Source: Balneolaceae bacterium
GTDB lineage: Bacteria; Bacteroidota; Rhodothermia; Balneolales; Balneolaceae
Assembly: GCA_017640605.1 (NCBI GenBank)
Contig: JAEPQH010000018.1
Coordinates: 1 to 64,000 of the forward strand
Reading direction: 5' to 3'
Length of the DNA: 64,000 nucleotides
A program made the position numbers and the translations under genes. Positions 3,312 to 33,176 of this stretch are shown one piece after another; position 1 is the first letter of the stretch, and each line of letters begins with the position of its first letter. The notes beneath the pieces are model-generated. The model was given only the letters and a program-made list of their open reading frames with translations, searched no databases and was not told where the DNA came from.

Positions 3312-3621
3312 TGAATTATAGATATGTTGACTCTACTGATTCCGCATTAATTCACATTATTTACGCGCATTTTATGCTATGCATGTAAACAAAATTAATG
3401 GTGATCAACTTACTGAACATTTCATCATTTTGTTTTGCTTTTTCCCGGAACAGCTTCTACCAAAAAGTATGCTGTATCAGCTATTCTTCATAGATATTTT
3501 TACCGATAACCGTCGAATAAAGGAAGAATTAGAATTGATTAACCCTCATATTGAATCTAATATTTCAATGTATATTCTGTGTGATGTAAAGTGCACTATT
3601 TGCATCTCAGAACGTGATTTT
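3312..3621. other. Divergent intergenic region
   Basis: About 310 bases separate rfbD (leftward) from the giant surface protein (rightward), so promoters for both should lie here. I see no convincing TAnnTTTG box. A short dyad, ATTGAA...TTCAAT, lies in the stretch around 3550-3570. An in-frame extension of the giant gene runs back to 3379, but it lacks signal-peptide character and is better read as non-coding. Confidence 0.5.
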
Positions 3622-16497: not shown

Positions 16498-16998
16498 ATG
16501 GCGGGATATACCGAACTCTTACAAACTATGCTTGCAATGGTCATCGTCTCATTTCTGGTGATTAATGCAAATCGTGCAATACTTGTTAATACAGAGACCA
16601 TGGTTGAAGGTGAATTAGAAAATCAAGTAATAGCTATAGCACAGGATTTTATTGAAGAATCGAGATCAACCACATTCGATGCAGAAACCGTGGGTGGTAA
16701 CGTACCGGTTAATATTCCTGATGGATTTTCGAGCATCGGTCCTGGCAGCGGTGAAACCTCGAGAGCCGATTTTAACGACTTTGATGATTATGATGGCTGG
16801 ACTGAGACGATCATAGCCTCCGGTGGTATTGAATATGAAGTGAGTATTGAGGTTTCATACTTCAAAAACGGTGCACCAACCAACACTAAATCTACCTTAA
16901 AACAAATGACGGTAACCGTTTCTTCGGATGATCTTACCAACAATGGCACCACAAAAACTTATACATTTAAATTTTTAAGAAGCTTTTACGCAGATTGA
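16498..16998 (+). CDS. PilV-like minor pilin protein, leaderless (cassette 1)
   Basis: This 166-residue protein has one N-terminal hydrophobic helix (about residues 7-25) followed by an amphipathic helix and a soluble beta-rich domain, the architecture of type IV minor pilins. It lacks the basic leader and G/F cleavage site of classical prepilins and starts MAGYTELLQTML. If the initiator Met is removed, Glu falls at position 5, where mature type IV pilins carry their conserved Glu5. The position in a trio with PilW-like and PilX-like proteins supports a PilV-like role. It is paralogous to the protein at 18834-19253. The PilW-like gene follows after one base. A short dyad CGATA.TATCG lies upstream at 16466-16476. 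Confidence 0.75.
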   Translation: MAGYTELLQTMLAMVIVSFLVINANRAILVNTETMVEGELENQVIAIAQDFIEESRSTTFDAETVGGNVPVNIPDGFSSIGPGSGETSRADFNDFDDYDGWTETIIASGGIEYEVSIEVSYFKNGAPTNTKSTLKQMTVTVSSDDLTNNGTTKTYTFKFLRSFYAD

Positions 16999-16999
16999 T

Positions 17000-17614
17000 A
17001 TGGATTTAGGAGTAGTAATCAGTTATATCATTGCCGGAATTCTCATCGTCATCATCGTTACAGTTGGTTACAATGTAAATTACAGTAGCAACGAATTAAC
17101 TTTGCAAGAAACCCAAAAAAGTAAAGTAGGTGCTGTAATTGAAACATTGAATTATGATTTGCCAAAAATCGGATATAATCAAAATGCTTTACCCGATACA
17201 CTAATTCTACAGGCAGACTCGACATTAATCAGCTTTTACTCAAACATTGATAATAGTGCTGATGGCTCCTTAGAATTAATTACCTGGGAGTACACAAATG
17301 CAGAAATTACAGAAACAGAAAATCCTGATGATCACTATATTACCCGAACGATTAATGGGATAACCTCTACAATAGGTGGAGGAATCACTCGATTTCGAAT
17401 CAATTATTACGACGAATTAGGTTCAACCTCTCCCCTATCTGTTCCAATTTCTGCGGTTTCTAATAAATCACTAATAGATTCAATTGTTCAAATTGAAATT
17501 ATTATAGAAAGTGGTAGCGCTATTGGCTTGCAATATCTCGGAAATACAAATAAAAATTATATGGCCACTGCTTGGACAAAGCGATACTCGCCATCTAACC
17601 TGAATATAAATTAG
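17000..17614 (+). CDS. PilW-like minor pilin protein, leaderless (cassette 1)
   Basis: This 204-residue protein starts with a hydrophobic helix right at the N terminus (MDLGVVISYIIAGILIVIIV). It continues with a long amphipathic helix ending in a LNYDLPKIGYN segment that resembles the (L..DLR.AGY) signature after the helix of PilW. No prepilin leader is present. It is paralogous to 19256-19837, sharing the helix pattern, a DYY/DHY segment followed by R/T-rich strands, and a C-terminal W.KR segment before the end. Its start is one base after the preceding stop, and the PilX-like gene follows 8 bases later, so the trio is co-translated. Confidence 0.75.
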   Translation: MDLGVVISYIIAGILIVIIVTVGYNVNYSSNELTLQETQKSKVGAVIETLNYDLPKIGYNQNALPDTLILQADSTLISFYSNIDNSADGSLELITWEYTNAEITETENPDDHYITRTINGITSTIGGGITRFRINYYDELGSTSPLSVPISAVSNKSLIDSIVQIEIIIESGSAIGLQYLGNTNKNYMATAWTKRYSPSNLNIN

Positions 17615-17622
17615 GAGTTATT

Positions 17623-18726
17623 ATGGGAAGAGGAATGATAATAATGGCTTTAGGCTCCTTTCTGGTATTAGGCTTAGTAAAAACCAGTTTATTTGATCAG
17701 AGAGAACGTATTCAAGGATTCAATTCTGATTATGCGAAAGATATTCAAGCTAAAAATGTTGCCCATACAGCCATTCAATTGGCCATGGAGCAAATTAATG
17801 AAGATCCATCATGGCACCCAACCTCAGCTAATCCCTGGGTTCAGGAAATTGATGGAGCACATGTTGAATTATTTTATGAAGTATTAGCTACTGGGGCTAC
17901 CCCAACAGATCCAGATAGCATTAGAATATTCAGTAATTCTTGGTACGGCGGCCAGGGCTCTTTAGGTAGTAATTCATATAAAGCTGATTCCGAGACCCAT
18001 TCAATTATCAGTACCTATCTAAAAACGGGTTTACATTTTGTACCCGAACCAGCAGGTGGGCTTGGCTTAGCTAGTGGAAATTTCAGATTTAATATGAGTG
18101 GAAGTGCGACTATTAGTGGTAACGACGCCAGTGGAACTTGCGCCGATATACCTGCAGTTACTGTACCTACTTTTTCTGATTATACTGAAGTTCTAGCAGG
18201 CGCAAAATTATCAAATCTAGAAAGTGATGAAGATTTGATCTCCATTGACCCTGATATTTCATACAGCCCCGTTGATGAATTAATAGCTCGTTTAAGTAAC
18301 CAACCTGGTGTTGTAGAAGTTAGCGGTAATTATAAAGGAGATTTTGGCAGCGTTGATGATCCAGGTGTGTTTTTTGTTGATTCCTATGCAAAATTGACCG
18401 GTGGTGTCCCTGAAGGGTATGGGATTTTAGTAATTCGATCAGGGGGTGAACTGGAATATGAAGGGGCATTGAGTGTAGCTGGTAATTTCACTTTCAATGG
18501 GTTAATTATTTTTGAAAATGCTTTCGACTTTACTGGTAGAGGGACTCCTGATTTGAATGGTTCCGTACTAATTGGAAATACCCCCGGAAACAATACGACA
18601 CTTGATATTGATCTTGGGGGTAGTATTCAAATTCAGTACGATTGCGAAGCTATTGATTACGCAAGAGTTGCTTCTGCTTCTCATCTTAAACAAAATAGAT
18701 ATAGCAGAGTAAGTACATTTGAATAA
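17623..18726 (+). CDS. PilX-like minor pilin protein with autotransporter-like C-terminal domain (cassette 1)
   Basis: This 367-residue protein begins MGRGMIIMALGSFLVLGL, a short basic start and hydrophobic helix. An alanine-rich helix (residues ~40-60) follows, the pattern seen at the N terminus of PilX and GspK family proteins. The C-terminal half has polymer-forming beta-strand repeats (GILVIRSGGELEYEGALSV, GNFTFNGLIIFENA, LNGSVLIG), as often found in PilX-like proteins of non-proteobacteria. A clear AGGAG ribosome binding site lies at 17613-17617, unusual for this clade and repeated before the cassette 2 homologue. The gene is paralogous to 19847-21319. Confidence 0.75.
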   Translation: MGRGMIIMALGSFLVLGLVKTSLFDQRERIQGFNSDYAKDIQAKNVAHTAIQLAMEQINEDPSWHPTSANPWVQEIDGAHVELFYEVLATGATPTDPDSIRIFSNSWYGGQGSLGSNSYKADSETHSIISTYLKTGLHFVPEPAGGLGLASGNFRFNMSGSATISGNDASGTCADIPAVTVPTFSDYTEVLAGAKLSNLESDEDLISIDPDISYSPVDELIARLSNQPGVVEVSGNYKGDFGSVDDPGVFFVDSYAKLTGGVPEGYGILVIRSGGELEYEGALSVAGNFTFNGLIIFENAFDFTGRGTPDLNGSVLIGNTPGNNTTLDIDLGGSIQIQYDCEAIDYARVASASHLKQNRYSRVSTFE

Positions 18727-18833: not shown

Positions 18834-19253
18834 ATGAGCAGTTACGCTGAGTTAACATATTTGATTGGAGCGATGGTTATTTTTGGGTTTCTATCCTTAA
18901 ATACCGCACGAAGTTTCAACTCAAACCGACAGGCAATTTACCAAGCCGAAGCCGAATACCGTGCAATTGCTGTTGCTCAGGACGAATTGGATAAAGTGCA
19001 ATGGATATATGATTCCGACGAATTAGATCCAAGTAGTGGTAACTATGTATACTCAAGCTACCCTATTGAAGAAGTACATAATTACGGATCGAGTGATCAA
19101 TACAGTTCTACTTTTATCATAAATGGTACTTCAGAATTAATTGAGGATACCGGTTCGATGAAAAAATACCAGGTAACGGTTTCTGTACTCAATCAGAATG
19201 TAACACCCGAAGTATTTATTACCTTAGAATACGTTAAATCCTACACCTACTAG
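18834..19253 (+). CDS. PilV-like minor pilin protein, leaderless (cassette 2)
   Basis: This 139-residue protein has the same architecture as 16498-16998. The N terminus MSSYAELTYLIGAMVIFGFL is directly hydrophobic, with Glu at position 6 (position 5 after Met removal) and a Tyr two residues before it, exactly as in the cassette 1 protein. A helix (EAEYRAIAVAQDELDKVQ) and a short beta domain ending in EYVKSY follow, comparable to the FKFLRSFY end of its paralogue. Two bases separate it from the next gene. No prepilin peptidase or assembly ATPase gene is in the window. Confidence 0.75.
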   Translation: MSSYAELTYLIGAMVIFGFLSLNTARSFNSNRQAIYQAEAEYRAIAVAQDELDKVQWIYDSDELDPSSGNYVYSSYPIEEVHNYGSSDQYSSTFIINGTSELIEDTGSMKKYQVTVSVLNQNVTPEVFITLEYVKSYTY

Positions 19254-19255
19254 CC

Positions 19256-19837
19256 ATGAATGCAGGACTAGCCATAACATTTGTGATTGGTGGATTATTC
19301 ATGATTTCGATCCTGAATTTCAACGCTCAGGTTATAAATCAAACACAGGAACTAACACTTAACACCATCAACCAATCGAATTTAGACAACTTGGTGGATG
19401 TACTTGCAAACGATTTTAACAAGATTGGTTTTAACGCCGGCACAGCGGTCCCTTTTACTACAATAGGTGATCAAAATATAATTTTTCAGGCTGATGTGTA
19501 TGATAATGACAGCTATGGATCTACAAATATACGTTGGTATTTCGACACCAGTGATGCCGTAAACAGCACCAATCCAAACGATTATTATTTAAAAAGAGTG
19601 GGTCCGATTGGCACCAACTCGTACGGAACCATTGAGTTTCCGGTAGTTTATTTCGATTTGAATTACTACACAGCGGACGGTACTCCAACAACTACGTTGG
19701 CCTCTGTTAAAAAAATCGAAGTTGAATTAATGGTTGAAACAGTAGAACCATACACAGTTAATAACGGGAATCAGCAATATCCTAGATTAATCTGGAAACG
19801 AATTTTTGTACCGAACAATATCAACTTACCATATTAA
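19256..19837 (+). CDS. PilW-like minor pilin protein, leaderless (cassette 2)
   Basis: This 193-residue paralogue of 17000-17614 has an N-terminal hydrophobic helix (MNAGLAITFVIGGLFMISIL). The amphipathic helix ends in LANDFNKIGFNAG, equivalent to LNYDLPKIGYN in cassette 1. A beta-rich domain follows with NPNDYYLKR and a C-terminal LIWKRIF segment equivalent to TAWTKRY in cassette 1. It is the middle gene of the second trio. The shared order and conserved junction spacing show that the whole trio was duplicated as a unit. Confidence 0.75.
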   Translation: MNAGLAITFVIGGLFMISILNFNAQVINQTQELTLNTINQSNLDNLVDVLANDFNKIGFNAGTAVPFTTIGDQNIIFQADVYDNDSYGSTNIRWYFDTSDAVNSTNPNDYYLKRVGPIGTNSYGTIEFPVVYFDLNYYTADGTPTTTLASVKKIEVELMVETVEPYTVNNGNQQYPRLIWKRIFVPNNINLPY

Positions 19838-19846
19838 GGAGCAGTT

Positions 19847-21319
19847 ATGGGAAGAAGTTTATTATTCTTAGTAAGCGGACTTACAATTTTAACGGGGATT
19901 GTGCAGGTAAACAACCAAGACCGTGTGGCCGAAATACCTGTTGTAACTACCGATTATTACAAGGCGCAACAAGCCAGAAATCTGTCTAAAAGTTTAATCG
20001 ACAATGCGGTTGAAACGATGAAAGACAATAACAACTGGGTAGGCAGCATCGACATAGATGAGGTAGTGGATACCAAAGCTTTACTATCACGCTCGAATGA
20101 AGGTCGAAAAAAACTAAGCCTTGGATTAATGGAACTCGACGAAGTTATTGCTATTGAACAACAAACTGAAGAATTATTGGATCAATCCGGAATCACCATT
20201 CCAATTAATTTAGAAGGCTCACTTAGCAGCTATACCCAAGACAGCCAAAACAAACCGAACAATAGTGTAGGTAGTTGGGACGAATATAAAGTACTGCTGG
20301 TAAGTTCAAGCACATACGATGATATTGAAGTGACTACCGAAGTGTTGATGCAACGAGATTCCTTTAGTAAGTATTCCTACATGACTCAATCTGAGTTAGC
20401 TGCTAATGGCTCTACCATTTGGTTTATGGATCAGGATAACATTTATGGCCCAATCCATACCAATGGGCAATTCGCGATGTCTGGTGCACCCTCTTTTTAT
20501 GGATTGGTTACGAGCCCAAATATGTGGCGAGCTCACAGTACCAACCCAACAAATCCTAACTTTTATGGTGGAGAAAACTTCAACGCACCGCTAAAAAGTG
20601 AACCTACTAGTTACGAAATTAATCGACTTGTTGCTGCTGCTAACGATGGTGGGAAAAGATACTCAGGGGATATTGATGTAGATTTTTACTATGATTCAGA
20701 TCATGGCTATGCTGATATTTCTTATGGTGGCTCACCTGGGAATGGTTGTGCTAACTGGATGTGGTGGTGTACTCCCATTCCACCAACACCCCCCACTGTT
20801 GAAACGGTGAACCTGGCCGACATTAATGGTGTGATTTCTACCGACGGTGAAATTGACGTAGAAGGTGAAGTTAGCGGGAGTGTTACTTTGCATTCAGAGG
20901 ATAGAATCGAAATTATGGGAGATATCACGTACCGCGTTAACCCCCTTGCCGATTCAACGTCTGCCGATCTACTCGGTTTGGTAAGCGAAGGAGATGTTGT
21001 AGTTGATCGATATGCCCATTCGGCTAATGGTTCGCAAGATTTAACCATTCATGCATCTATTGTAGCGCTAAATACCTCTTTTACCGTAGAAAACTATAAT
21101 TCTGGTGGTAGCAAAGGTACACTAAATATGTTAGGTGGAATCATTCAACAAAATCGTGGACCAGTTGGCACCTTCTCCGGAAGTACGGTAGTTTCCGGCT
21201 ACATCAAGAATTACCAGTACGACAACCGGTTAAAGGCAACTATTCCACCATCATTCCCAAGAGAAAGTGTTTTCTCAATTGTATACTGGAAAGACGAAGT
21301 AAACAAAAGCAATAACTAA
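19847..21319 (+). CDS. PilX-like minor pilin protein, enlarged (cassette 2)
   Basis: This 490-residue paralogue of 17623-18726 starts MGRSLLFLVSGLTILTGIV and continues with a YYKAQQARNLSKSLIDNAVE helix. It is preceded by AAGGAG at 19836-19841, the same strong ribosome binding site as in cassette 1. The middle contains FMDQDNIYGPIHTNGQFAMSG, and the C-terminal part has GEVSGSVTLHSEDRIEIMGDITY and repeated strands, a polymer-forming fold. A CANWMWWCTPIPPTPP segment (around 20748-20790) has two Cys that could form a disulphide. It probably sits at the tip or base of a pilus-like fibre, by analogy with PilX/GspK; this is inference. Confidence 0.75.
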   Translation: MGRSLLFLVSGLTILTGIVQVNNQDRVAEIPVVTTDYYKAQQARNLSKSLIDNAVETMKDNNNWVGSIDIDEVVDTKALLSRSNEGRKKLSLGLMELDEVIAIEQQTEELLDQSGITIPINLEGSLSSYTQDSQNKPNNSVGSWDEYKVLLVSSSTYDDIEVTTEVLMQRDSFSKYSYMTQSELAANGSTIWFMDQDNIYGPIHTNGQFAMSGAPSFYGLVTSPNMWRAHSTNPTNPNFYGGENFNAPLKSEPTSYEINRLVAAANDGGKRYSGDIDVDFYYDSDHGYADISYGGSPGNGCANWMWWCTPIPPTPPTVETVNLADINGVISTDGEIDVEGEVSGSVTLHSEDRIEIMGDITYRVNPLADSTSADLLGLVSEGDVVVDRYAHSANGSQDLTIHASIVALNTSFTVENYNSGGSKGTLNMLGGIIQQNRGPVGTFSGSTVVSGYIKNYQYDNRLKATIPPSFPRESVFSIVYWKDEVNKSNN

Positions 21320-21805: not shown

Positions 21806-22303
21806 ATGATAAGGCACTTTTTCACATTTATTTTCTTATTTATTTTCAGTGCTTTAGTACAAGCTCAGGATAATAATGTAACTGCCAATATTAATATTGA
21901 AGCAAATGTTATTCAGTCTATTGAGTTGATAACTGTAAATTCTATGACATTTGGTAACACTCAACCCGGTCAAGAAGTTATTTATGTGAATCCAATCACT
22001 GATTTAAATGCGGGTTACATGATTGCTTATGGTACTCCGGGAGCAGAATTCCGCTTAGATTATGAATTAAACAGACAACTAACTCGTATTGAAGGGGAAG
22101 GATTTTTAAATTTCCGCTACGAACTTTCAGCAAACTCAATTGAAGATCAAACTAGTTCAGAACTAATCGAATACGAAAATCGAAACCTAAGATTTAATTC
22201 TGAAGGCATTTATTATATATGGGTTGGCGGTGAAGTAAATCTAGAAAATGCACGTCCGGGAAACTACGAAGGCGACTTTACTATAGAAATCGATTACATC
22301 TGA
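21806..22303 (+). CDS. DUF4402 pilin-like subunit 1
   Basis: This 165-residue protein has a signal peptide ending ALVQAQ, then the N-terminal strand NVTANINIEANV. It has the DUF4402 hallmark MTFGNTQPG, where the Phe-Gly follows the first strand. The C terminus ends GNYEGDFTIEIDYI: Tyr is penultimate and Gly is 14th from the end, the signature of chaperone-usher pilus subunits recognised by PapD-type chaperones. It is the first of four such genes upstream of a chaperone and usher. A TAACTTTAG box at 21780-21788 could be a promoter remnant, but its spacing to an upstream TTG is short. Confidence 0.85.
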   Translation: MIRHFFTFIFLFIFSALVQAQDNNVTANINIEANVIQSIELITVNSMTFGNTQPGQEVIYVNPITDLNAGYMIAYGTPGAEFRLDYELNRQLTRIEGEGFLNFRYELSANSIEDQTSSELIEYENRNLRFNSEGIYYIWVGGEVNLENARPGNYEGDFTIEIDYI

Positions 22304-22304
22304 T

Positions 22305-22892
22305 ATGAGATTAGTAATTGTTACCATTTTAAGCGTATTATTTTCTTTGAGCAGCCTTGCTCAAGAGATTGATTTTGGTGACTATAGCGCACTATACTCG
22401 ATTAGTTTGACAGAACTAAGTCCTGGAATGAACCTAAATTTTGGTACTGTTGCTGATAATGAAGGACTTGTTTCGATTGACATTAATGATGCTAAAATAT
22501 ATGCAATTGAAGGAGTGAAATATCTAGATATAATAGTAGATATTACTGCAGATCAATTTTTATTACTTGACGGGAATCTATCCTATGCATCAGATCCTAC
22601 TCGGAGAATTGAACTGACAATGGCTGCTGCTTACGCTAACATGGGTATTCAAGATCCTAGCCAAGCAATTATTTTTAATGTTTTTGGAACAACAGCCAGT
22701 GCTCAGTTTCCTATCAAATATCGTGGAAACGCCCCTCCTGGCCCACCACCAACTCCTGTTTATCAAGGCTATGACCCTACTGTTTTCAATGAAACAGCGT
22801 ATCTATATATATATGCCTCAATAAATCTTCCAGGAGGTATTGTCGCAGGAAGCTATACTGGAAATATTAATGTGAGTATAAGTTATGATTAA
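22305..22892 (+). CDS. DUF4402-like pilin subunit 2
   Basis: This 195-residue secreted protein starts one base after subunit 1. The signal peptide ends SSLAQ. The domain contains LNFGTVADNEG, the equivalent of the DUF4402 FG turn, a proline-rich loop (PPGPPPTPVYQG) and a C terminus GSYTGNINVSISYD. Gly is 14th from the end and Tyr is penultimate, as expected of a chaperone-usher subunit. It is more diverged than the fourth subunit and may be a minor or tip subunit. Its end overlaps subunit 3 by eight bases. Confidence 0.8.
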   Translation: MRLVIVTILSVLFSLSSLAQEIDFGDYSALYSISLTELSPGMNLNFGTVADNEGLVSIDINDAKIYAIEGVKYLDIIVDITADQFLLLDGNLSYASDPTRRIELTMAAAYANMGIQDPSQAIIFNVFGTTASAQFPIKYRGNAPPGPPPTPVYQGYDPTVFNETAYLYIYASINLPGGIVAGSYTGNINVSISYD

Positions 22893-23415
22893 CTTGAAAC
22901 TCATCTTAGCATTATCGATCAGTATATTTTTTAGTTCAAACACTCTTGCACAGTTTATTAATCTTCAGATTAGAGTCGAACCTGAGCTAAGTGCGACGGT
23001 TGAACAAGACCTAAATTTTGGTCAGCTTGTTGTAAATTCTGGCCCTTCTATTATCGAACTCGGAGATATTAACATGGGCATCTTCAATATTCGTTCCTAC
23101 TATACTCAAAACGTTTTTGTTCAATTACAGGTTCCTGATGCTTTGACCCATATTAACCCAGCTATAAATGACGTTATCCCACTTGAATTGGGAGTAGCAT
23201 ACAACAACTCTGGGACACGAAATTTAGATGAAAGTATTATTTTATCAGAAAATTTTGGGTTTTTACCAATATACAGTGCCACTAGCACGGGTTATACTAC
23301 CAACACTGAAATCTGGCAAGAAATGTATCTATATGTTTTCGGTTCAATAATTATTGGTAATGTTAATGAAGGTGAATACAACGGTGAAGTTACCTTACTG
23401 ATAGAGTATGATTAA
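22885..23415 (+). CDS. DUF4402-like pilin subunit 3
   Basis: This 176-residue secreted protein has a signal peptide ending SNTLAQ and an N-terminal strand of alternating hydrophobics (FINLQIRVEPELSATV) suitable as a donor strand. LNFGQLVVNSG is its FG turn. The C terminus EGEYNGEVTLLIEYD again has Gly 14th from the end and Tyr penultimate. Its ATG lies within the end of subunit 2 (overlap ATGATTAA), indicating translational coupling of subunits 1-3. It is probably a minor pilin. Confidence 0.8.
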   Translation: MINLKLILALSISIFFSSNTLAQFINLQIRVEPELSATVEQDLNFGQLVVNSGPSIIELGDINMGIFNIRSYYTQNVFVQLQVPDALTHINPAINDVIPLELGVAYNNSGTRNLDESIILSENFGFLPIYSATSTGYTTNTEIWQEMYLYVFGSIIIGNVNEGEYNGEVTLLIEYD

Positions 23416-23519: not shown

Positions 23520-24056
23520 ATGAAAAATTTAAAAAACCTTCTTTCGATTTTTGCTGTAGCAGGTCTGTTTGCAACTGGTGCTTTCGCACAATCAACAAGT
23601 GAGAATGCTACTGTTTCTGCTGAAGCTTCAATTGTATCAGCAATTACCGTTGCTAATAATGCTGATCTTCTTTTTGGAGATATTTTAACTTCAGAAACTC
23701 CTACAATAGCAGCTACTGCAGCTAATGCTGGATCTGTTAGTATTACTGGTGCAACTAATGGCCAAACCTTAAATATCTCAGCGGTATTTCCTGCGACTCT
23801 TACAGATGGAACTCCTGCTAATGATCTAGATCTAGGTTCCTACGACATTGCTGTCCGTACTGATGGTACCGACGATGCTACTGGGGCTACATCACCAGGA
23901 GATGAGGCGACTGCAACACAAACAGTTACTGGTTCTTTCACAGCTACAACAAACACCATGTATGTATACGTAGGTGCTCAAATCACAGACGCATCAAGCG
24001 GTGTTGCTGGTAATGATTATTCAAATGACATTACTGTGACTATTTCTTACAATTAA
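23520..24056 (+). CDS. DUF4402 pilin, probable major subunit
   Basis: This 178-residue secreted protein has a signal peptide ending ATGAFAQ, a small, Ala/Thr-rich mature domain and the donor-strand-like segment ENATVSAEASIVSAITV. LLFGDILTS is the DUF4402 turn, and the C terminus GNDYSNDITVTISYN has a penultimate Tyr; the matching Gly is 15th rather than 14th from the end. The low-complexity, compact composition, its own putative promoter and the strong terminator right after it suggest the abundant shaft subunit. It is the subunit nearest the chaperone and usher genes. Confidence 0.88.
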   Translation: MKNLKNLLSIFAVAGLFATGAFAQSTSENATVSAEASIVSAITVANNADLLFGDILTSETPTIAATAANAGSVSITGATNGQTLNISAVFPATLTDGTPANDLDLGSYDIAVRTDGTDDATGATSPGDEATATQTVTGSFTATTNTMYVYVGAQITDASSGVAGNDYSNDITVTISYN

Positions 24057-24073: not shown

Positions 24074-24113
24074 AAAAGTCTCATTGTTTCTATGACAATG
24101 AGACTTTTTTTTT
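24074..24113 (+). terminator. Rho-independent terminator after the major pilin
   Basis: AAAAGTCTCATTGT and ACAATGAGACTTTT form a perfect 14-base stem with a 7-base loop, extended by a T-run. It separates the abundant pilin transcript from the chaperone-usher-motor operon. Confidence 0.9.
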
Positions 24114-24220: not shown

Positions 24221-25057
24221 ATGAAGAATATTCGACTTTACGCGGTTATTGCTTTTTTTGTGCTGTCCCCTCTTTATTTAAATGCGCAAGTCACCATTGC
24301 ACCTACAAACATGTTCATTGATGGTAATGCCAGATTTGGAACATACATGGTGATAAATAATTCGAATGAAACGCAGGAAATTTCTATTGATTTCCTTTTT
24401 GCATACAGCCAAACTGACGAACAAGGCAACAGAAGTATAATACAAGATGACTCTGCAGCGGCCGAGCAATATTCAATCGCTGAATTCATTCGTGCTTTTC
24501 CTCGAAACTTCACACTAGCTTCTGGTCAAAGGCAAGTTGTACGACTGAGATTAAATCCACCAAATGACTTAGAAGATGGAACCTATTGGGCTAGAATTAA
24601 AACAGGTTCTACTCCAGAATCACCTCCATTAGAACTCCAATCAAATAATGCGGTAGCTGCACGTGTAGGTATTAGAGTTGAGCAAGTAACCGGACTTTTT
24701 TTTAAAAAAGGGAATACTACTACTGGAATAGAAGTAACAGAAATATCTACAGAGTACGATCAACTAACTGATAAGTTAAACGTTTATATTGATATAAACA
24801 GAACTGGCAACAGTCCTTTTCTCGGTTCTATTACAACATCATTAATAAATGAAAATGGTGAAATAGTTCGCGAAAGTTTTATTTCTACCTCGATTTATTT
24901 TGATGGGGTACAAAAGAGTGAATTTGATATTGCGGATATCCCAAATGGACAATATACCATAAGAGTGCAATTTGAAAGTTCACGTGCAGACATTCCTAGT
25001 TCAGATATTATCCAAATGCCTACTGTCATCGAAACAACAACATTTACCAAGCGTTGA
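24221..25057 (+). CDS. PapD-like periplasmic pilus chaperone
   Basis: This protein (278 residues from the ATG at 24221) has a signal peptide ending LYLNAQ. The upstream TTG at 24191 would add a non-signal-like extension. The N-terminal immunoglobulin-like domain shows the PapD pattern: VTIAPTNMFIDG, a Y.VINNSNETQEISIDF strand, then FPRNFTLASGQRQVVRLR and L.DGTYWARIKT. In the family this domain caps pilus subunits by donor-strand complementation and delivers them to the usher. The position of PapD Arg8 appears to be Asn here by my hand alignment, while an Arg in AARVGIRVE may replace Lys112. Its stop overlaps the usher start in TTGA, so the two are coupled. Confidence 0.88.
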   Translation: MKNIRLYAVIAFFVLSPLYLNAQVTIAPTNMFIDGNARFGTYMVINNSNETQEISIDFLFAYSQTDEQGNRSIIQDDSAAAEQYSIAEFIRAFPRNFTLASGQRQVVRLRLNPPNDLEDGTYWARIKTGSTPESPPLELQSNNAVAARVGIRVEQVTGLFFKKGNTTTGIEVTEISTEYDQLTDKLNVYIDINRTGNSPFLGSITTSLINENGEIVRESFISTSIYFDGVQKSEFDIADIPNGQYTIRVQFESSRADIPSSDIIQMPTVIETTTFTKR

Positions 25058-28050
25058 TTCTTTGGAAAACAAAAAACTTATTTATTTTTCTCTTCATTTT
25101 CGTATGCATGCAGCTTCAAAGCACGCATGTAAACGCACAAGATGAAGATTTTTTTGAAGTCTACCTAGACTTTAAGCATCGTGGTGTTATCAATAATGTT
25201 GTAATCTCCTATTACGATGGTGAACAATTCTTTTTACCATTGGTTGAGTTGTTCAATCTATTCCAAATTGAAGCTAATGTAAATGGTTTAGTGATTTCGG
25301 GCAGATATTCAATTGAACAAACCCCTTATTCAATTGACCTTTCTCGTCCTTCAATTAGTTTTAATGGGAAAACCTATGAATTAACTTCCGATCAATATTA
25401 CATTACTGAGCTTGATTACCATTTCCCGCCTAAACTTTTTAGTGAGATTTTCGGATTAAATTTCTCTGTTGATATAAATAACCTTTCCTTACGCCTAGAG
25501 ACCAATGAAGAAATACCAATCATCGCAAAGACATTAAGGGATCAAAAACGAAGGTTAGCTAACAATAATCGAGTTCAAACGGATTTTTATCCTCTTGAAT
25601 ATGATCGAGAATATAAAATTTTTGATGGTGGATTCATGGATTACTCGATGTCAAGTACTATACAACCAGACATTACAACTTTTAGTTATAATAGCGCAGT
25701 TGGTCTACAACTTGCAGGTGGTGATTTACAGGGAAGTTTCTTTGGAAATATTTCGTCTGATGTTTCTGCATTAGAAACTAACAACTTACGCTGGAGAACT
25801 ATCATAAGAAATAAACCTTGGATCAGTAATATTACAATTGGGCAATCCAATATGGACGGTGTTTTAATGAATCGATACACGGGTATCCGTTTAACTAATG
25901 ACCCTGTTGAACCAAGACGTTTATTTGATGAATTTGAAATACAAGGAACCACTTTTCCTCAATCTGAAATAGAATTGTATCTCAACAATGGTCTAATTGA
26001 TTTTCAACAAGCTGATGAGTTAGGCAATTATCGCTTTTTAACCCCTTTATACTATGGCTCCACACAGCTTGATCTTAGAATTTATGGACCTACTGGGCAA
26101 ATAGTAACTCGTTCATCTAGAGTGCAAGTTCCATTCACATTTAATCCAAAAGGGGAGTTTAATTATAGGATTAATGCCGGGGTATTAGATAATGCATTTA
26201 TTGGTAGTACAGTCCGTAACAGAATGTTTCAAGCGAATGGTTCGTATGGTGTAACTAAATGGCTTACATCAAAATTTGGGGTTGAATATTTTACCGAAGA
26301 GCTTGGGAGAGAAACTCCATATTTTACAGGTACATTATCATCCCGTATTTCTTCAAGTTATATTTTATCTGTAGAAGGTGTAACTAATGCGTATTACAGA
26401 GCTACTCTAAATGCGATTTATCCAAGCGCAGCAAGTATTAACTTTGATTATACTAATTTCTACGCCGGAGAGAGTATTTTTAATACTACTAATAATGACC
26501 AACAACTAACTAGCTCAATATTCGTACCTTTAAGATTATTCAAACTTCCATTTAATTTGAGGTTATCTAATTTTTCTCGCTCTAGAGAAGGAACTACTAC
26601 AAATAGCATCCGCTTTGATGTAAACTCACGCATAAATAAATTAAACTTAAGAGTTGGCTATTCTGATCGTTTGATTGATACTTTCAATCCATTTAATTCA
26701 ACACAAGGTAATACATTAGAAGGTTCAGCGACTTATACTATATCGCGTAATCCAAACATTCCAACTGTATTAAGAGGTACTTTTTTAAGGGCTCAACTAA
26801 GGTTCTTACCTGAACAGAATGAGCTTCAAAACGCCGAATTTCTTTTTTCGAAAAATGTATTCCAAGTTGGAAGGCTTCAAGTTTCTGTTGGTCGCAATTT
26901 TATTTCAGAATTCAATACCATAAGAGCAAACTTTGTTATTGATTTCAAAAGAATCAGAAGCAATACTACTGTTACAACTATCAGAAACAGTATTAGTACT
27001 TCACAAAACATTCGAGGGTCAGTTGGTTATGACTCGAATTTCAAAAATTTTATTCTAACAAGTAGAGATCAAGTAGGGAGGTCTGGAGCAGCTATCCAAA
27101 TTTTTGCTGATAGAAATGGAAACGGAACTTTTGATGAAGATGATGAGCTACTTCCTGAAGTTAGTATGAGAATTGGAAGAAATGGTTCACAATACATGTA
27201 TAAAAATGGGGTATTGTATTACACTCAAATGCGACCCTATTTTAGATACAATATGGAGATGAACACCTCCACTATTAAAAACCCTATGCTTGTTCCTGGT
27301 TTGGATAAATTCTCTATGATAACTGATCCTAATAGTTTTAAGCCTATAAGTATTCCCTTTAATATAAGTGGTGTTATGGAGGGAATTGTTGAACGGCAGT
27401 ACAACGACGGCCAAACTCAAGGTATTGGTGGTTTAAAAGTTTTACTCAACGAAAAAGGAGAATCAGAAACAAAAGAGTTGAGAACATTTTCGGATGGTAG
27501 TTTCTACGAATACCCTATCTCTCCAGGGCAATACAATATTAAAGTTGATCCAACACAACTCAGTTTGCTTCAAACCAGATCAGTTCCAGAGGAAATTGAT
27601 TTTGAAGTAAAAGTTACCCCCGATGGTGATTACGTGGAAGGAATTAATTTTAGATTATTACCGCTTGAAGACGCCGAATCATCCCAAGAAGATAGTCTTG
27701 CCGCGCTCACTATTGCACAGGTTACCGACGAGATAAAATCGTCGCCAGAAATATTAGAATATTCTCAGGAAGTATTTAAAGAAGTTGATAATGCTTTAAG
27801 GCTCATAATCAAAGCTCAAAACGCCTTTTATTCTAACAACATAGACTTAGCCTTCCGCTATGTTAACGAATCATTAGAACTTTTTGAAACTGCACAAGCA
27901 CACGCTTTAAAGGGAAGTTTTTATTATTTTGAAGGTAACATCGATCAGGCGCAACGACATTGGGAACAGGCACTCCGATTTAACCCCGACCTTGTAATTC
28001 CGGATATGGAAGTACTTGAAGAGAGGGTGAATAGGCGTGCATCAGATTAA
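25054..28050 (+). CDS. Outer-membrane fimbrial usher with C-terminal TPR domain
   Basis: This 998-residue protein starts at TTG 25054 and has a signal peptide ending THVNAQ. Residues ~30-170 form an N-terminal region of short strands (VYLDFKHRGVINNVVISYY). A long beta-barrel region (about 180-770) is interrupted by a plug-like domain with QGTTFPQSEIELYLNNGLI and GNYRFLTPLYYGSTQLDLRIYGP.G, a classic usher signature. A carboxypeptidase-regulatory-like domain follows (about 770-880). The last ~100 residues are TPR (NNIDLAFRYVNESLELFET.QAHALKGS.YY..GNIDQAQRHWEQAL), unusual for ushers, which are normally ~800-870 residues without TPR. It should form the outer-membrane pore for DUF4402 subunits. 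The TPR module recurs in the lipoprotein at 29904-30431. Confidence 0.88.
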   Translation: MILWKTKNLFIFLFIFVCMQLQSTHVNAQDEDFFEVYLDFKHRGVINNVVISYYDGEQFFLPLVELFNLFQIEANVNGLVISGRYSIEQTPYSIDLSRPSISFNGKTYELTSDQYYITELDYHFPPKLFSEIFGLNFSVDINNLSLRLETNEEIPIIAKTLRDQKRRLANNNRVQTDFYPLEYDREYKIFDGGFMDYSMSSTIQPDITTFSYNSAVGLQLAGGDLQGSFFGNISSDVSALETNNLRWRTIIRNKPWISNITIGQSNMDGVLMNRYTGIRLTNDPVEPRRLFDEFEIQGTTFPQSEIELYLNNGLIDFQQADELGNYRFLTPLYYGSTQLDLRIYGPTGQIVTRSSRVQVPFTFNPKGEFNYRINAGVLDNAFIGSTVRNRMFQANGSYGVTKWLTSKFGVEYFTEELGRETPYFTGTLSSRISSSYILSVEGVTNAYYRATLNAIYPSAASINFDYTNFYAGESIFNTTNNDQQLTSSIFVPLRLFKLPFNLRLSNFSRSREGTTTNSIRFDVNSRINKLNLRVGYSDRLIDTFNPFNSTQGNTLEGSATYTISRNPNIPTVLRGTFLRAQLRFLPEQNELQNAEFLFSKNVFQVGRLQVSVGRNFISEFNTIRANFVIDFKRIRSNTTVTTIRNSISTSQNIRGSVGYDSNFKNFILTSRDQVGRSGAAIQIFADRNGNGTFDEDDELLPEVSMRIGRNGSQYMYKNGVLYYTQMRPYFRYNMEMNTSTIKNPMLVPGLDKFSMITDPNSFKPISIPFNISGVMEGIVERQYNDGQTQGIGGLKVLLNEKGESETKELRTFSDGSFYEYPISPGQYNIKVDPTQLSLLQTRSVPEEIDFEVKVTPDGDYVEGINFRLLPLEDAESSQEDSLAALTIAQVTDEIKSSPEILEYSQEVFKEVDNALRLIIKAQNAFYSNNIDLAFRYVNESLELFETAQAHALKGSFYYFEGNIDQAQRHWEQALRFNPDLVIPDMEVLEERVNRRASD

Positions 28051-28051
28051 A

Positions 28052-29890
28052 ATGCACAGAATACGTCACATATTTGACTCTATGCTTGCCAAAATTTTAA
28101 CCAATTTTGGCGTGAAATTACTAGCTCTTCTATTTTTAACAACTTGTTTCCTTGCATCTACCGACATTAGCGCTCAAACAGCATTTGATCCATCAAGTTC
28201 TCAATCTCTTGAACTACGCGTTGCCAATCTGGAACAACAGTATGATTCCCAAATCATCCAAATTCTTTCAAATTACTTTAATCGAAAAAAATTTTTTATC
28301 GATGTAAATATTAATGCTGAGCTGATCGATCAAACGATAGGTACTACCAGTAATCAAGTAGTAGAATCGAGTCAACAAGAGCAGAATCTATTCATGCCGG
28401 GCCTTCCCTTCTTGCCTGAACAAAATCTTCGTCAGCCTGCTAACCGTAACCGACAGCCTGAAACTATTGTAAACGAAAATACCATAAAAACGCTGCGTAT
28501 CGTTAACATGAGCGTTAATATTTATGCAGATACTTCGGTTACTACCGCTCAGCTTGAGTTAATGCGATTTATTACAGGAATCGCAGTAAAAATCAACGAG
28601 GCTCGAGGTGATGAAATCACCATATCTCAATTAGCCATCCCAGATTATACTGAGGCCCCCGAACCTGTTACGGCTACTACTGTTGTACAACAGCCTACTG
28701 CGCCCGATTACAACTCCATCTACACTTATATTCCTGCTTTGGCATTAATGCTGCTATTTGGGCTTACACTTTTGTTTAACAAATTGATGAACAAGCCCCA
28801 GACCCAAATCCCCCTTCGGGATTATCGGGATACATTTAAAAATGATATGGGCTTGCAACAACAGTCGGCACAACCTTTTTCCAGCACTGAGCAAGTAAAG
28901 GGTGATATTGAGCAAAGTGATGAGGACATGACTACCGAAGATATTGTGAATGCATTTTTTACTAAGCCTGAGGAGATTGCCACTATTTTCAGGTATTGGT
29001 TAAGTGAAGAAGAAAACGGGGCTAAAAAAGCTGCTGAATATTTAGTGGCTGTCGACAAACATCTGCTCCGAACTTTAAAAAAGGAACTTCATCCCGAAGA
29101 TTACGACAGCCTGAGCGATGCTTTATTGGAACTCGAGGAATTAGCGCCAGAGCGGCGAGCAGAAATTGTAGAAGAGTTTGCACGAATGCTTCAACAAGGT
29201 GCTAAACAAACCGTATCTGAGAAAAAACGAAGTAAATTTTCATTATTCAAATTCCTCGATCACATTTCGGATAAGCATATTCTCACGTTACTAGAAACAG
29301 AAGACAGCCTCTCCGGTGCTTTTATACTTCAGTATATCCCGGATGATAAAGCTGCATTACTGATCGAAAAATTAGACAAAGAAATTGCCGCTAAAATCAT
29401 GTTGCATATGGCATCGTTGAATAATTTAACCAACGATCAGCAGCAAAAGATATCGTCAGAACTCTTCGACAAAGCCATGGATTTAGTGGAAGCTGAACGA
29501 AGCGAGCAATATGGTGCTGAACACCTCTATCCTATTTTAGAACGACTTCCGGTACACGAACAACAACGTTATATTGATGAGTTAAAAGCTACAGGCTCGA
29601 TAGTTGGAGCCATCCTGGAAAAGCAGTTTATTACTATCGATCGTTTACCTGAGTTAAGTGATGAAATCATTAAAAAAGCCGTTCGAACACTTAATACAGA
29701 AACATTACTAGACGCAATTGTTGGGTTACCTCCTCAAGTTGTGGATCGAATTTTATCTGCGCGACCTACGCGAGAACAACGTTTATTACGCATGGAACTT
29801 GAAGAGCTTCAAGGAACGCCCGGTCGCCAAACCGAATATGCTAAGGCTCTCTTAATGAATTCTATCCGCAAGAATGCGAATGACAAATAA
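28052..29890 (+). CDS. FliF/FliG-like single-chain rotor protein
   Basis: Residue numbers count from the possible GTG at 28037 (617 residues). The ATG at 28052, one base after the usher stop, is my chosen start; the ATG at 28082 is also possible. A signal-anchor (~17-40) precedes a region like the FliF C-terminal periplasmic RBM3 (about 66-203: LEQQYDSQIIQILSNYF, FIDVNINAEL, RIVNMSVNIYAD, then the FliF/YscJ-type ending ARGDEITISQLAIPD). A second membrane helix is at 229-249. The cytoplasmic part resembles FliG: N-like ~298-385, M-like ~400-485, C-like ~495-612. R579, E587 and R597 occupy positions like the torque-helix charges Arg281, Asp289 and Arg297 of E. coli FliG by hand alignment. It would form an inner-membrane ring turned by the adjacent MotA/MotB. 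No other flagellar gene is nearby. Confidence 0.82.
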   Translation: MHRIRHIFDSMLAKILTNFGVKLLALLFLTTCFLASTDISAQTAFDPSSSQSLELRVANLEQQYDSQIIQILSNYFNRKKFFIDVNINAELIDQTIGTTSNQVVESSQQEQNLFMPGLPFLPEQNLRQPANRNRQPETIVNENTIKTLRIVNMSVNIYADTSVTTAQLELMRFITGIAVKINEARGDEITISQLAIPDYTEAPEPVTATTVVQQPTAPDYNSIYTYIPALALMLLFGLTLLFNKLMNKPQTQIPLRDYRDTFKNDMGLQQQSAQPFSSTEQVKGDIEQSDEDMTTEDIVNAFFTKPEEIATIFRYWLSEEENGAKKAAEYLVAVDKHLLRTLKKELHPEDYDSLSDALLELEELAPERRAEIVEEFARMLQQGAKQTVSEKKRSKFSLFKFLDHISDKHILTLLETEDSLSGAFILQYIPDDKAALLIEKLDKEIAAKIMLHMASLNNLTNDQQQKISSELFDKAMDLVEAERSEQYGAEHLYPILERLPVHEQQRYIDELKATGSIVGAILEKQFITIDRLPELSDEIIKKAVRTLNTETLLDAIVGLPPQVVDRILSARPTREQRLLRMELEELQGTPGRQTEYAKALLMNSIRKNANDK

Positions 29891-29903
29891 AGTACAGGTA
29901 AAA

Positions 29904-30431
29904 ATGAAACATAGACCTGCTTTTGCGTTTTTTTTGATTCTTTCGGTACTCTTGATTCATTGTGCATCCAGCAATCAATCCATTGATCCGATAGTTGAAC
30001 AAGGCACGATCTCGCCGGAAGATTCCCTTCAACTGGCAATACAAGATAGTTTGGAACAAGCCCAGGCTAAAGAAGAAGAACTTCGTGAAGCTCTCATCGA
30101 ATTATATAAAGATGAGATCTATTCAAGATATCAAGCACAAGCGAATACCCTTACAAACTACTATATACTTGCTCAACAGCACTTTTATACCGGCGATTTT
30201 GAAAATGCGCTCTTCCTGATCAACCGCGCTGCACTTATCAAAGAAAATGCTGATGTGTTAGCCTTACGTGGTAGTATTTATCTTGGATTGGGATATATCA
30301 ATGAATTTGTGAGTCACTGGCGAAGAGCTCTTGAAATGGACCCTTCTGTTCCCATACCTTCTTCCACCTACATTATTCAGCAACTTCAGAATAATGGATT
30401 AATCGATGAAAATTTAACAAAGAGCTTTTAA
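29904..30431 (+). CDS. TPR-containing lipoprotein
   Basis: This 175-residue protein starts at ATG 29904, which gives a lipoprotein signal peptide (MKHRPAFAFF..) with lipobox LLIHC and Cys20; upstream starts at 29874 and 29880 would only lengthen the n-region. A charged coiled segment (QAKEEELREALIELYKDEI) is followed by a TPR pair: AQQHFYTGDFENALFLINRA, then LALRGSIYLGLGYI and HWRRALEMDPSVPIP. This TPR matches the C terminus of the usher at 25054-28050, including the HW..AL..(N/D)P core. It lies 13 bases after the rotor gene and 7 bases before the motA-like gene. I infer a periplasmic link between motor and usher. Confidence 0.85.
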   Translation: MKHRPAFAFFLILSVLLIHCASSNQSIDPIVEQGTISPEDSLQLAIQDSLEQAQAKEEELREALIELYKDEIYSRYQAQANTLTNYYILAQQHFYTGDFENALFLINRAALIKENADVLALRGSIYLGLGYINEFVSHWRRALEMDPSVPIPSSTYIIQQLQNNGLIDENLTKSF

Positions 30432-30438
30432 TAACTCT

Positions 30439-31236
30439 ATGCGTACATCCATACTCAATATTCTATGTTTTCTAATTTCTTCGTTGATTTTGGTTTGGGG
30501 TGCACTTCTGGTAACCGGGTATACGCAATACGATTTAATTCCCTCTCGATTCGCTTTTTTAAATCTGCCAAGTTTAGCCATCGTTTTTGGCGGAATAACT
30601 GCCAGTGTATTTATTAGCTATCCTTTCAATAGTGTAATTAAGGCGCTCGTTGAAAGCACTAAACTGTTTTCTTACAGCACCATCACCCACGAGGTGTTAG
30701 AAGAAGACATACAGCGGGTAATGGACTGGCAAAAGATGATTAAGCAAAATAAATACGAGGCAGTTACTCAGCTCAGCGAAGAATATGCTGATCGTTTCGA
30801 GGGGTATTTATTTTCGATTTTGGATACCAATTATGACACCGAAGATCTTCGGGAGCTTGGGGAGATCAATATTGAAGAAAACTACTCTCGCCAGCAAATG
30901 GTGAATCAAATTATTGCTAGTATGGGCAAGACTTCTCCTGTTTTCGGGATGTTAGGAACCCTTTTTGGCTTGATCGTAATATTATCAGGGTTTAGTGAAG
31001 TGGAGTCGTTATTGAGTGGGTTAGGTGCTGCTTTAATGACCACATTATATGGTATTCTGATTGGTAATTTTATTTTCACGCCAATGGCTAAAAAGATGAA
31101 TAATGTGGCTTCACTACGGTATTTTAGAGAGAAATTGATCCTGGAGGGAATTATTCTAATCGAAGAACAAAAAACTTCGCTACAAATTTACGATAAGCTT
31201 CAAGCACATATGCGCCGAAATAAAAACATGATTTAA
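30439..31236 (+). CDS. MotA-like stator protein
   Basis: This 265-residue protein has four predicted membrane helices. The second helix region holds LPSLAIVFGGITASVFISYPF, typical of MotA/PomA, and a cytoplasmic loop of ~95 residues follows. The third and fourth helices carry SPVFGMLGTLFGLIVIL and LIGNFIFTPMAKKM, with Pro167 and Pro215 at the positions of E. coli MotA Pro173 and Pro222. In the family MotA with MotB conducts protons or sodium and pushes the rotor's FliG. The large cytoplasmic loop and helix order favour MotA over the ExbB/TolQ branch, though both share the fold. It is followed 9 bases later by the MotB-like gene. Confidence 0.9.
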   Translation: MRTSILNILCFLISSLILVWGALLVTGYTQYDLIPSRFAFLNLPSLAIVFGGITASVFISYPFNSVIKALVESTKLFSYSTITHEVLEEDIQRVMDWQKMIKQNKYEAVTQLSEEYADRFEGYLFSILDTNYDTEDLRELGEINIEENYSRQQMVNQIIASMGKTSPVFGMLGTLFGLIVILSGFSEVESLLSGLGAALMTTLYGILIGNFIFTPMAKKMNNVASLRYFREKLILEGIILIEEQKTSLQIYDKLQAHMRRNKNMI

Positions 31237-31245
31237 GCGGCTGTT

Positions 31246-33129
31246 GTGAAGAAAAAGAAACCAATAAGAATTAAATATTCGCTTTTTCCACTACCGGATG
31301 AGGAAGCTGATGATGATGAGAGCTGGCAAGTAAGTTATCTTGATATCATTACAATCGTATTGGGGTTTCTGATTATTTTGCTTTCTGTCTCACAAATTAC
31401 GAAGTCAGAATTTTCTTCTCTTTCATCCATTTTTGGTAAACTAGCGGATGAAACTGAGTTTTTAACCACTCCCATAGGAGCCATTGAACGAGAATTATTC
31501 GGATTGTTGGAGCCCGAAATTGAAGCCGGTAATCTGGAAATCATTCGTGATTTAAATGATCTAAGAATTCGTTTTAAAAGTGACGACCTTTATGATCCGG
31601 GCAGAGCTCAATTAGATCCGGATTCTGAACAACTTCTTAATACTGTGTTGATAGCTTTGCAACAGGTTAAGTACAACGATTTCTTAATTGATGTTGAAGG
31701 ACATACCGACAATACTCCGATCTCATCGGTGGCTTACCCCTCAAATTGGGAGCTTTCAACTGCAAGAGCAGCAAACGTAGTTAAGTATTTTAATGATGCT
31801 GGAATCCCTGCCAACCGACTTAAAGCATCTGGTTATGCAGATTCTCGTCCGGTAATTGAATATGATTCTTTAGGTTTTCCATTCGCGGCCAGCAAAGAAA
31901 AAAATCGCCGAGTGGTACTAAGGCTTTATTACTCATCTGATAATTTAAATGAAGAAATTCTTACACAACCGGAAGCTGATGACGTATTGTTAATTGCCGA
32001 AACTGAATCAGGGACTCCTGAAAGTTTGAGTAATGATATTCCAGGTATTTCTGAGCTCCCTCCTCCCGATCCGAATGAAAACGTTGTGATATTAGCTGAA
32101 GAGCCAGCTTTACTTACGGTGATGGAAGAAAACCGAATCCGGAATCAGTTAGCAGCTGAACAACAAGATGAAACACCAGCAACTGACGATGTTAATTCAG
32201 ATTCAGGTCGACAACAAGCTAACGAAACTGATGAGCCTCAGAACGATCGTGAAAGTGTTACACAAGAGCCTGTTTCTCAAGCTGAAGAAGAACTAGAACC
32301 AGTTGAGCAATCAGAGCCGGAACCATCTGCTACAGAAATTCCATCATCAAGTAATGCAATGCCATCGTTGTTGCGAGTGGATGCTCGATGCCAGTATTCG
32401 GTGCAACTTGGTGAGTTTTCTGCTTTACAAACGGCATTTCAACGAGCTGATGCGATAGAATCATCAAACTTAACGGATGTGATACTCACTTATAACACCA
32501 ACGAATATTCGGTTAGAACATCTCCTACTTCTTCGTTTACGGAGGTTGTAAGCTTACGAAATGAATTATCATCAAGAATTAATGATAAAAGTGTAAGTGT
32601 TGTTCATCAGTGTTACAACAATACCATTCAGCGGCCGAAACCAGTAAAATATCTCATTCAATTTGGTGCATTTCAAACTCGTGCTAATGGCTTAGATTAC
32701 ACCATCGAATTGTTAGATCAATACGGTGTACAAGCTTATATGAATCGGGTTTCTGATACTTTTAATGTGCTTACCGGACCATATGAGTCGCGAGAAGTAG
32801 TTCTAGAACAATTACGCACTTTCAGGGAGATGGGAATTTCTTCAAATCTATTTATTCGTCACCAACCGGAAACAGCTGCTACGTATAAATATGCTTACCA
32901 AATTCAAGTTGACGAACTGAGTAACCGACAAGAGGCCAATGAACTAGCACAACAAGTACGATCGAGAACAGGCATAAATACCCGCGTAGAAGAACTAGTT
33001 AGTGGTCGATATTCTGTAATGACGGGACAATCAGTAAATCGAAATGAAACTCAAACCATTTTCAATCGATTATTGAATTCCGGCTTTTCAATAGAACCTA
33101 TTATTTTTTACTTAGAGTATATTCCTTAA
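31246..33129 (+). CDS. MotB-like stator protein with OmpA domain and SPOR-like repeats
   Basis: This 627-residue protein starts at GTG 31246. The single N-terminal helix has W.VSYLDIITIVLGFLIILLS, with Asp33 at the place of the essential Asp32 of E. coli MotB. Residues ~115-225 are an OmpA/MotB peptidoglycan-binding domain (VEGHTDNTPISS, NWELSTARAANVVKYF, LKASGYADSRPV, NRRVVLRL). An acidic, proline-rich linker (~230-375) leads to three tandem SPOR-like repeats (from ~383, ~465 and ~545; cores YSVQLGEFSAL, YLIQFGAFQTR and YQIQVDELSNR). MotB proteins are usually ~300 residues without SPOR. The repeats may bind denuded septal glycan or an accessory factor. This is the last gene of the motor operon. 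Confidence 0.9.
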   Translation: MKKKKPIRIKYSLFPLPDEEADDDESWQVSYLDIITIVLGFLIILLSVSQITKSEFSSLSSIFGKLADETEFLTTPIGAIERELFGLLEPEIEAGNLEIIRDLNDLRIRFKSDDLYDPGRAQLDPDSEQLLNTVLIALQQVKYNDFLIDVEGHTDNTPISSVAYPSNWELSTARAANVVKYFNDAGIPANRLKASGYADSRPVIEYDSLGFPFAASKEKNRRVVLRLYYSSDNLNEEILTQPEADDVLLIAETESGTPESLSNDIPGISELPPPDPNENVVILAEEPALLTVMEENRIRNQLAAEQQDETPATDDVNSDSGRQQANETDEPQNDRESVTQEPVSQAEEELEPVEQSEPEPSATEIPSSSNAMPSLLRVDARCQYSVQLGEFSALQTAFQRADAIESSNLTDVILTYNTNEYSVRTSPTSSFTEVVSLRNELSSRINDKSVSVVHQCYNNTIQRPKPVKYLIQFGAFQTRANGLDYTIELLDQYGVQAYMNRVSDTFNVLTGPYESREVVLEQLRTFREMGISSNLFIRHQPETAATYKYAYQIQVDELSNRQEANELAQQVRSRTGINTRVEELVSGRYSVMTGQSVNRNETQTIFNRLLNSGFSIEPIIFYLEYIP

Positions 33130-33145
33130 TACTCGTTTCTTAACC

Positions 33146-33176
33146 AAAAAAAGCGAGCATTACTGCCCGCTTTTTG
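33146..33176. terminator. Bidirectional terminator between motB-like and DUF4914 genes
   Basis: AAAAAGCG and CGCTTTTT form the outer stem, with inner GC pairs and an ATTACT loop. A-runs on the left and T-runs on the right fit termination from both sides, matching the convergent gene arrangement. Confidence 0.85.

Follow-up and report, generated by a model that had tools for sequence, protein, structure and literature searches.

Chaperone-usher pili are generally taught as unpowered fibres, the classical assembly of which needs neither adenosine triphosphate (ATP) nor a membrane potential, while FliG and MotAB are taught as the flagellum's own motor. Stator-type ion channels also energise outer-membrane transporters, as in TonB-ExbBD. 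In the GldLM-GldKN machinery of the type IX secretion system (T9SS) and in Agl-Glt, an ion-driven stator is likewise believed to set components of the outer membrane or surface in motion, although a FliG-type rotor has not been described there and neither an usher nor a pilus is involved; a 2026 review of gliding never mentions FliG (PMC13104615), and neither ushers nor Balneolales figure in a survey from 2025 that covers MotAB together with its non-flagellar relatives (PMC12505986). The operon described here lies in a stretch of 64,000 nucleotides from a Balneolaceae bacterium (assembly GCA_017640605.1, contig JAEPQH010000018.1, positions 1 to 64,000 of the forward strand; hereafter the window), and places a chaperone-usher pilus beside a flagellar-type rotor and stator.

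Sequence comparison and predicted folds establish that a chaperone, an usher, a rotor, a tetratricopeptide repeat (TPR) lipoprotein and a MotAB-type stator are co-encoded and that this association is conserved. On balance, the operon is best read as coding for a motorised chaperone-usher pilus, in which the motor would move or torque the already assembled pilus and have no role in assembly. All parts come from known families, but the composite is judged new in kind; a more cautious filing would be as a variant of the chaperone-usher pilus. An earlier note, made from the DNA letters alone, knew of no described system joining these parts, and none was found in the open full-text literature, a scope outside which preprints and most subscription papers lie, so that absence is weak evidence.

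Identity of the components

The rotor is confirmed at the level of sequence as a fusion of a FliF RBM3 domain, a transmembrane (TM) helix and FliG N, M and C domains, and hence differs from the flagellar motor in that the FliF and FliG parts form one polypeptide with one TM helix. All three FliG domains exceed the Pfam cut-offs, and a profile search against FliG structures reaches 3e-30. The FliF part is recognised by profile-profile comparison with the RBM3 region (3.7e-9, probability 96), including an RGD motif that is invariant across all rotors. The FliF/FliG-like rotor proposed in the earlier note thus has profile matches in both halves. In the torque helix, R574 and E582 of the window rotor align with R281 and D289 of E. 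coli FliG, which are stator contacts (PMC12505986); the first is R in every intact rotor and the second is acidic (E) throughout. Conversely, the HPQ of the FliM-binding EHPQR motif is replaced in all rotors but retained in the flagellar FliG of the same genome, and the operon has no FliM/N, export gate, rod, hook or filament gene.

The stator assignments also stand, with a Pfam match of E=7.6e-17 for MotA and of E=5e-16 for the OmpA domain of MotB, which additionally carries MotB_plug and, as an extra relative to the flagellar protein, a C-terminal SPOR array. The TM helix of MotB contains the channel aspartate D33, invariant in the alignment, and the two channel prolines of MotA (P167 and P215) align with P173 and P222 of E. 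coli. An ion channel of the MotA superfamily acting across the periplasm onto the outer membrane, with a link to peptidoglycan, is also found in TonB-ExbBD and Tol-Pal; the cassette differs from these in its flagellar-type MotA, its MotB-type OmpA domain and its dedicated rotor. In the tree, cassette MotA falls on the flagellar MotA side of a 100/100 branch, apart from ExbB/TolQ-like proteins, consistent with NCBIfam scores of 9e-30 for MotP versus 0.03 for TolQ. Among NCBIfam models, MotP, PRK09109 and MotD match the stator best, but each falls far short of its cut-off, and these matches do not tell H+ from Na+.

For the chaperone and usher, profile searches of the PDB returned only TPR or chance matches, and folds were therefore predicted instead. 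The AlphaFold model of the chaperone (predicted local distance difference test score, pLDDT, 87.8) matches SfaE, FimC, Caf1M and CupB2 with Z 13-14 (VIA-align) and a CFA/I-type chaperone at 1e-9 (Foldseek), confirming at the level of the model a PapD-like two-domain periplasmic chaperone. Pfam does not recognise the window usher, and PF00577 is matched by 2 of 13 usher homologues (best 7e-8). Its model (pLDDT 76) reaches Z 18-21 to FimD and PapC over up to 562 residues (for FimD, Z 21 over 557 residues), whereas the next unrelated barrels reach only Z 14-15; by Foldseek the usher model scores 1e-28. The predicted fold thus confirms an outer-membrane usher of FimD/PapC type, and both identities given in the earlier note are borne out. 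The likeness to described chaperone-usher pili (FimC/FimD, PapD/PapC, CFA/I, Csu) extends to the chaperone, the translocation domain and the small secreted putative pilins encoded upstream; the differences are an identity of only about 9-15% across structural matches, a TPR or SPOR tail on the usher and, in the motorised version, the co-encoded rotor and stator.

The C-terminal TPR tail of the window usher (approximately residues 888-997) is homologous to the TPR lipoprotein of the motor, and the usher profile retrieves no other TPR protein below 1e-10. This homology lends plausibility to the earlier proposal that TPRs link the rotor to the usher.

Among the putative pilins, two of the three small secreted proteins match DUF4402 (E=0.0012 and 0.031, both failing the curated cut-off) and the third has no DUF4402 match in Pfam. 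Proteins of this DUF4402-like type are kept beside the usher in both motor and motorless loci. The probable major pilin, so labelled from its position before a hairpin, has homologues at the same position in most loci.

Conservation and independence from the flagellum

The gene order chaperone-usher-rotor-TPR-MotA-MotB recurs in 16 complete cassettes, which represent two families of the order; partial cassettes occur where contigs end and in a third family. The arrangement is therefore more than chance and is not confined to the window. Each of the 21 ushers examined that end in this TPR tail is directly followed by a rotor gene, versus none of the 19 SPOR-tailed ushers of the order and neither of two from another family. 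Among 296 genomes of the phylum, the rotor is adjacent in 15 of the 15 that have such a TPR-tailed usher; usher homologues in this sample that end near profile position 870-917 have no adjacent rotor. Nowhere in the loci examined was the usher-linked cassette encountered apart from its usher.

FlhA, the protein of the type III export gate that flagellar assembly requires, was not found in 11 of the 15 genomes with the system, including two assembled as single contigs (G034 and G043). Together with the conserved order, this indicates a system that is neither local nor part of the flagellum, in agreement with the earlier claim of a rotor and stator sharing one operon with a pilus independently of flagellar export. 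The same note had reported no flagellar export, rod, hook, FliM/N or flagellin gene, which is correct for the operon and its flanks (no rod, hook or flagellin gene among their genes) but not for the genome, in which an ordinary flagellum with FliF, FliG, FlhA and MotA is encoded on contig C21 (L001, L007, L008). Pairing of the motor parts with such a flagellar set elsewhere in the genome is not the general situation, given the 11 carriers without FlhA.

Two decayed copies were also seen. One (L054:7892-12785) has a TPR-tailed usher, a rotor without the FliG C domain and no stator, and the other (L063:7857-11966) has a split TPR-tailed usher, a rotor ending after the FliF part and no stator.

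Motorless relatives and exchange of architectures

In sister species the pilus operon occupies the same place in the chromosome, next to pyruvate-dehydrogenase genes, but lacks the motor (L060, L061). Both architectures occur inside a single genus (g17: motorless G117 and G121 versus G018, G028, G107, G148, G198 and G210). The motorless sisters retain the chaperone, the pilins and an usher core that is 40-54% identical to that of the window, and this core runs into a SPOR array, detected by Pfam in all seven tails of the order that were tested. By profile search, a SPOR tail is present on 19 of 20 motorless ushers of the order, the exception being shortened by a stop. Motorised members of the family instead carry a homologous SPOR array on MotB and the TPR domain on the usher. 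The array of MotB and that of the motorless ushers can be aligned across 246 columns with a probability of 99.9 (E=1.7e-32), and the MotB tail used as a query in four genomes matches only MotB or usher proteins. This exchange of usher TPR and MotB SPOR domains was not taken in by the earlier note, nor was the second, usher-free cassette described below.

Some motorless ushers are further elaborated. Those of L123 and L124 have two consecutive SPOR arrays (approximately residues 901-1142 and 1202-1449), and those of L062 (5586-10235) and L132 (2172-6647) have a spacer of several hundred residues between core and array, acidic and proline-rich in L062, in both perhaps long enough to span the periplasm.

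The usher-core tree requires at least seven changes of the motor label, counting starred branches alone, and a single clade of the family's motorised ushers is rejected (approximately unbiased test, AU p=2e-33), indicating from the phylogenies that the architectures have been interchanged repeatedly. The SPOR-tail tree, in contrast, separates MotB tails from usher tails (90/92, not starred). As the tails sort by architecture while the cores do not, usher tail and motor behave as one swapped block. The simplest reading is that the 3' part of the locus exists as two standing alleles, which recombination inside the usher gene exchanges as a block. This fits the separate grouping of the tails better than an origin of the motorless forms by recurrent deletions in place, each joining the usher core to the SPOR tail of MotB, an explanation to which the SPOR tree gives no support.

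Related cassettes without an usher

The same genome has a second cassette on contig C15 (L004:11183-16236), which encodes a FliFG rotor, an outer-membrane protein, a TPR lipoprotein, MotA and MotB, and neither usher nor pilins. The outer-membrane partner, of 361 residues, has no Pfam match and its membrane location was predicted from sequence. A TonB-dependent-receptor-like gene comes after this cassette. The five-gene order also occurs in Fibrobacterota and KSB1 (L091-L095), and a rearranged third version is found in family f38 (L064:5656-10902, L065:5435-10714), with the order unknown protein of 375-383 residues, TPR protein, MotA, MotB and rotor, in genomes that also have FlhA. Within Balneolales, MotA proteins of the usher-linked and usher-free cassettes form sister groups (joint branch 89/91). 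These comparisons point to a common core of FliFG rotor, TPR lipoprotein and MotAB with an exchangeable outer-membrane partner.

A possible mechanism and its alternatives

Motor and pilus are very probably functionally coupled, and the coupling is probably direct, through the TPR tail of the usher. In the mechanism that can be proposed, FliFG would form a ring in the inner membrane that has neither FliM/FliN nor export gear. OmpA and SPOR domains bind peptidoglycan, and MotAB would be fixed to the wall by its OmpA domain and SPOR array. Ion flow via MotAB would then drive the ring through the retained FliG torque helix, and the motion would be relayed by the periplasmic part of the rotor and the TPR lipoprotein to the usher tail, so that the usher, having no wall anchor of its own, would be turned or pulled together with its pilus. 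Such a rotary, gliding-like or tension-generating device may serve life on surfaces. Rotation, sliding and tension cannot be distinguished from sequence, and motion, retraction and motility are all inference; that the motor rotates or torques the base of the pilus, rather than dragging it laterally, is given slightly less than even credence. A more specific proposal, in which a flagellum-independent FliG-MotAB rotary motor spins or winds the pilus through the outer membrane, as one of a wider FliFG-TPR-MotAB family whose members in Balneolales, Fibrobacterota and KSB1 would drive different partners in the outer membrane, is possible and is offered tentatively.

Several observations weigh against a motor that moves the pilus. 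In two cassettes of another family (L051, L057) MotB has no SPOR array, making the anchor exchange a family-level feature, and motorless relatives elsewhere in the phylum carry unrelated TPR repeats on their ushers (L072, L073), showing that usher TPRs alone are no proof of a motor. In MotA, the position of E. coli R90, which faces FliG D288/289, is an alignment gap and the E98 column varies, leaving the rotor-stator contact half supported. Lastly, gliding had not been reported for Balneolaeota as of 2016 (PMC5167729).

Lateral dragging of usher-pilus complexes along the wall, similar to the gliding proposed for Agl/Glt in Myxococcus, is a rather unlikely alternative. The motorised usher, having no wall anchor, could move in this way, and T9SS gliding works by transport of surface adhesins (PMC13104615), whereas the two kinds of wall-binding domain on the stator suit a fixed stator. 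Moreover, a FliG ring is built for rotation, as known from flagella.

It is improbable that the motor instead energises the usher, whether to open its plug, to translocate subunits or to extend the pilus in a regulated way, in the manner of ExbBD with TonB-dependent receptors. The usher tail would extend into the periplasm towards the motor, and the precedent of TonB-ExbBD mentioned above speaks for such a role. However, sisters that have neither rotor nor stator retain at this locus the pilins together with the chaperone and the usher core, so that assembly does not need the motor, and the energising of subunit export suggested in the earlier note is not supported; classical chaperone-usher assembly, moreover, runs unpowered.

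Equally small is the chance that the cassette is a general trans-envelope device, for upkeep of the outer membrane and wall or for signalling of pilus contact, with the usher tethered as a sensor or anchor and not moved. The paralogous cassettes without usher or pilins in the same genome, Fibrobacterota and KSB1 favour this idea, as do the wall-binding SPOR and OmpA domains, but the usher-linked cassette was not seen apart from its usher and swaps with the usher tail. Finally, that rotor and stator are relic or spare parts serving the flagellum and placed here by chance is very improbable and was rejected, despite a true flagellum in this genome that has FliG, FlhA and MotA of its own, in view of the carriers without FlhA, the loss of HPQ, a MotA lineage shared with the usher-free cassette only and the strict linkage to usher tail type.

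Organisation of the operon and its surroundings

Coordinates are collected in Table 1. The six genes and their junctions are as the earlier note had them, and hairpins do lie on both sides; however, the true start of the operon is at the putative pilin genes upstream of the six-gene set. The hairpin after the pilin suggests that pilin would be made in excess over the products of the downstream genes. The closing hairpin was passed over by a consensus terminator scan owing to one A-C mismatch.

Table 1. Features of the motor-pilus operon (positions in the window)
Feature	Position	Strand	Remarks
Small secreted DUF4402-like protein, probable pilus subunit	21806-22303	+	
Small secreted DUF4402-like protein, probable pilus subunit	22305-22892	+	
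Small secreted DUF4402-like protein, probable pilus subunit	22885-23415	+	
Probable major pilin	23520-24056	+	178 residues; signal peptide
Terminator-like hairpin	24074-24108	+	between major pilin and chaperone; 15 pairs, T-rich tail
Chaperone	24221-25057	+	3' end overlaps usher start by TTGA
Usher	25054-28050	+	TTG start codon
Rotor	28052-29890	+	1-base gap after usher; signal peptide, FliF RBM3-like periplasmic domain, one TM helix, FliG N/M/C
TPR lipoprotein	29904-30431	+	13-base gap after rotor; lipobox LIHC
MotA	30439-31236	+	7-base gap after TPR lipoprotein
MotB	31246-33129	+	9-base gap after MotA
Terminator hairpin closing the operon	33148-33175	+	-12 kcal/mol, z -4.6; palindromic, may serve both strands

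Further upstream are two giant secreted repeat proteins with type IX sorting-like tails (3379-11154 and 11379-16397), a type that also precedes the pilus genes of many relatives. They are followed by two tandem three-gene sets with hydrophobic N-termini (16498-18726 and 18834-21319) that resemble minor-pilin proteins of PilV/PilW/PilX type, with no recognisable prepilin sites. The third gene of the second set contains DUF4900, and this set also neighbours the pilus operon of several relatives, whether or not they have the motor.

Implications

Marine bacteria are among the carriers. Should the motor prove to move the pilus, the system would be a bacterial machine of a new kind and, should it spin the pilus, a second kind of rotating surface appendage powered by flagellar-type parts. 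It would also place the core of the flagellar motor at work apart from export and filament, and so bear on how the flagellum could have arisen from modules. The system is tractable, as flagellar export is absent from at least one carrier in culture, Balneola sp. EhC07, which has the operon on NZ_LXYG01000015.1 and could show whether ion flow drives the pilus, and sister species with a motorless version of this locus provide a natural control. Beyond the pilus, the existence of a paralogous cassette lacking an usher suggests that trans-envelope rotary motors form a wider class.
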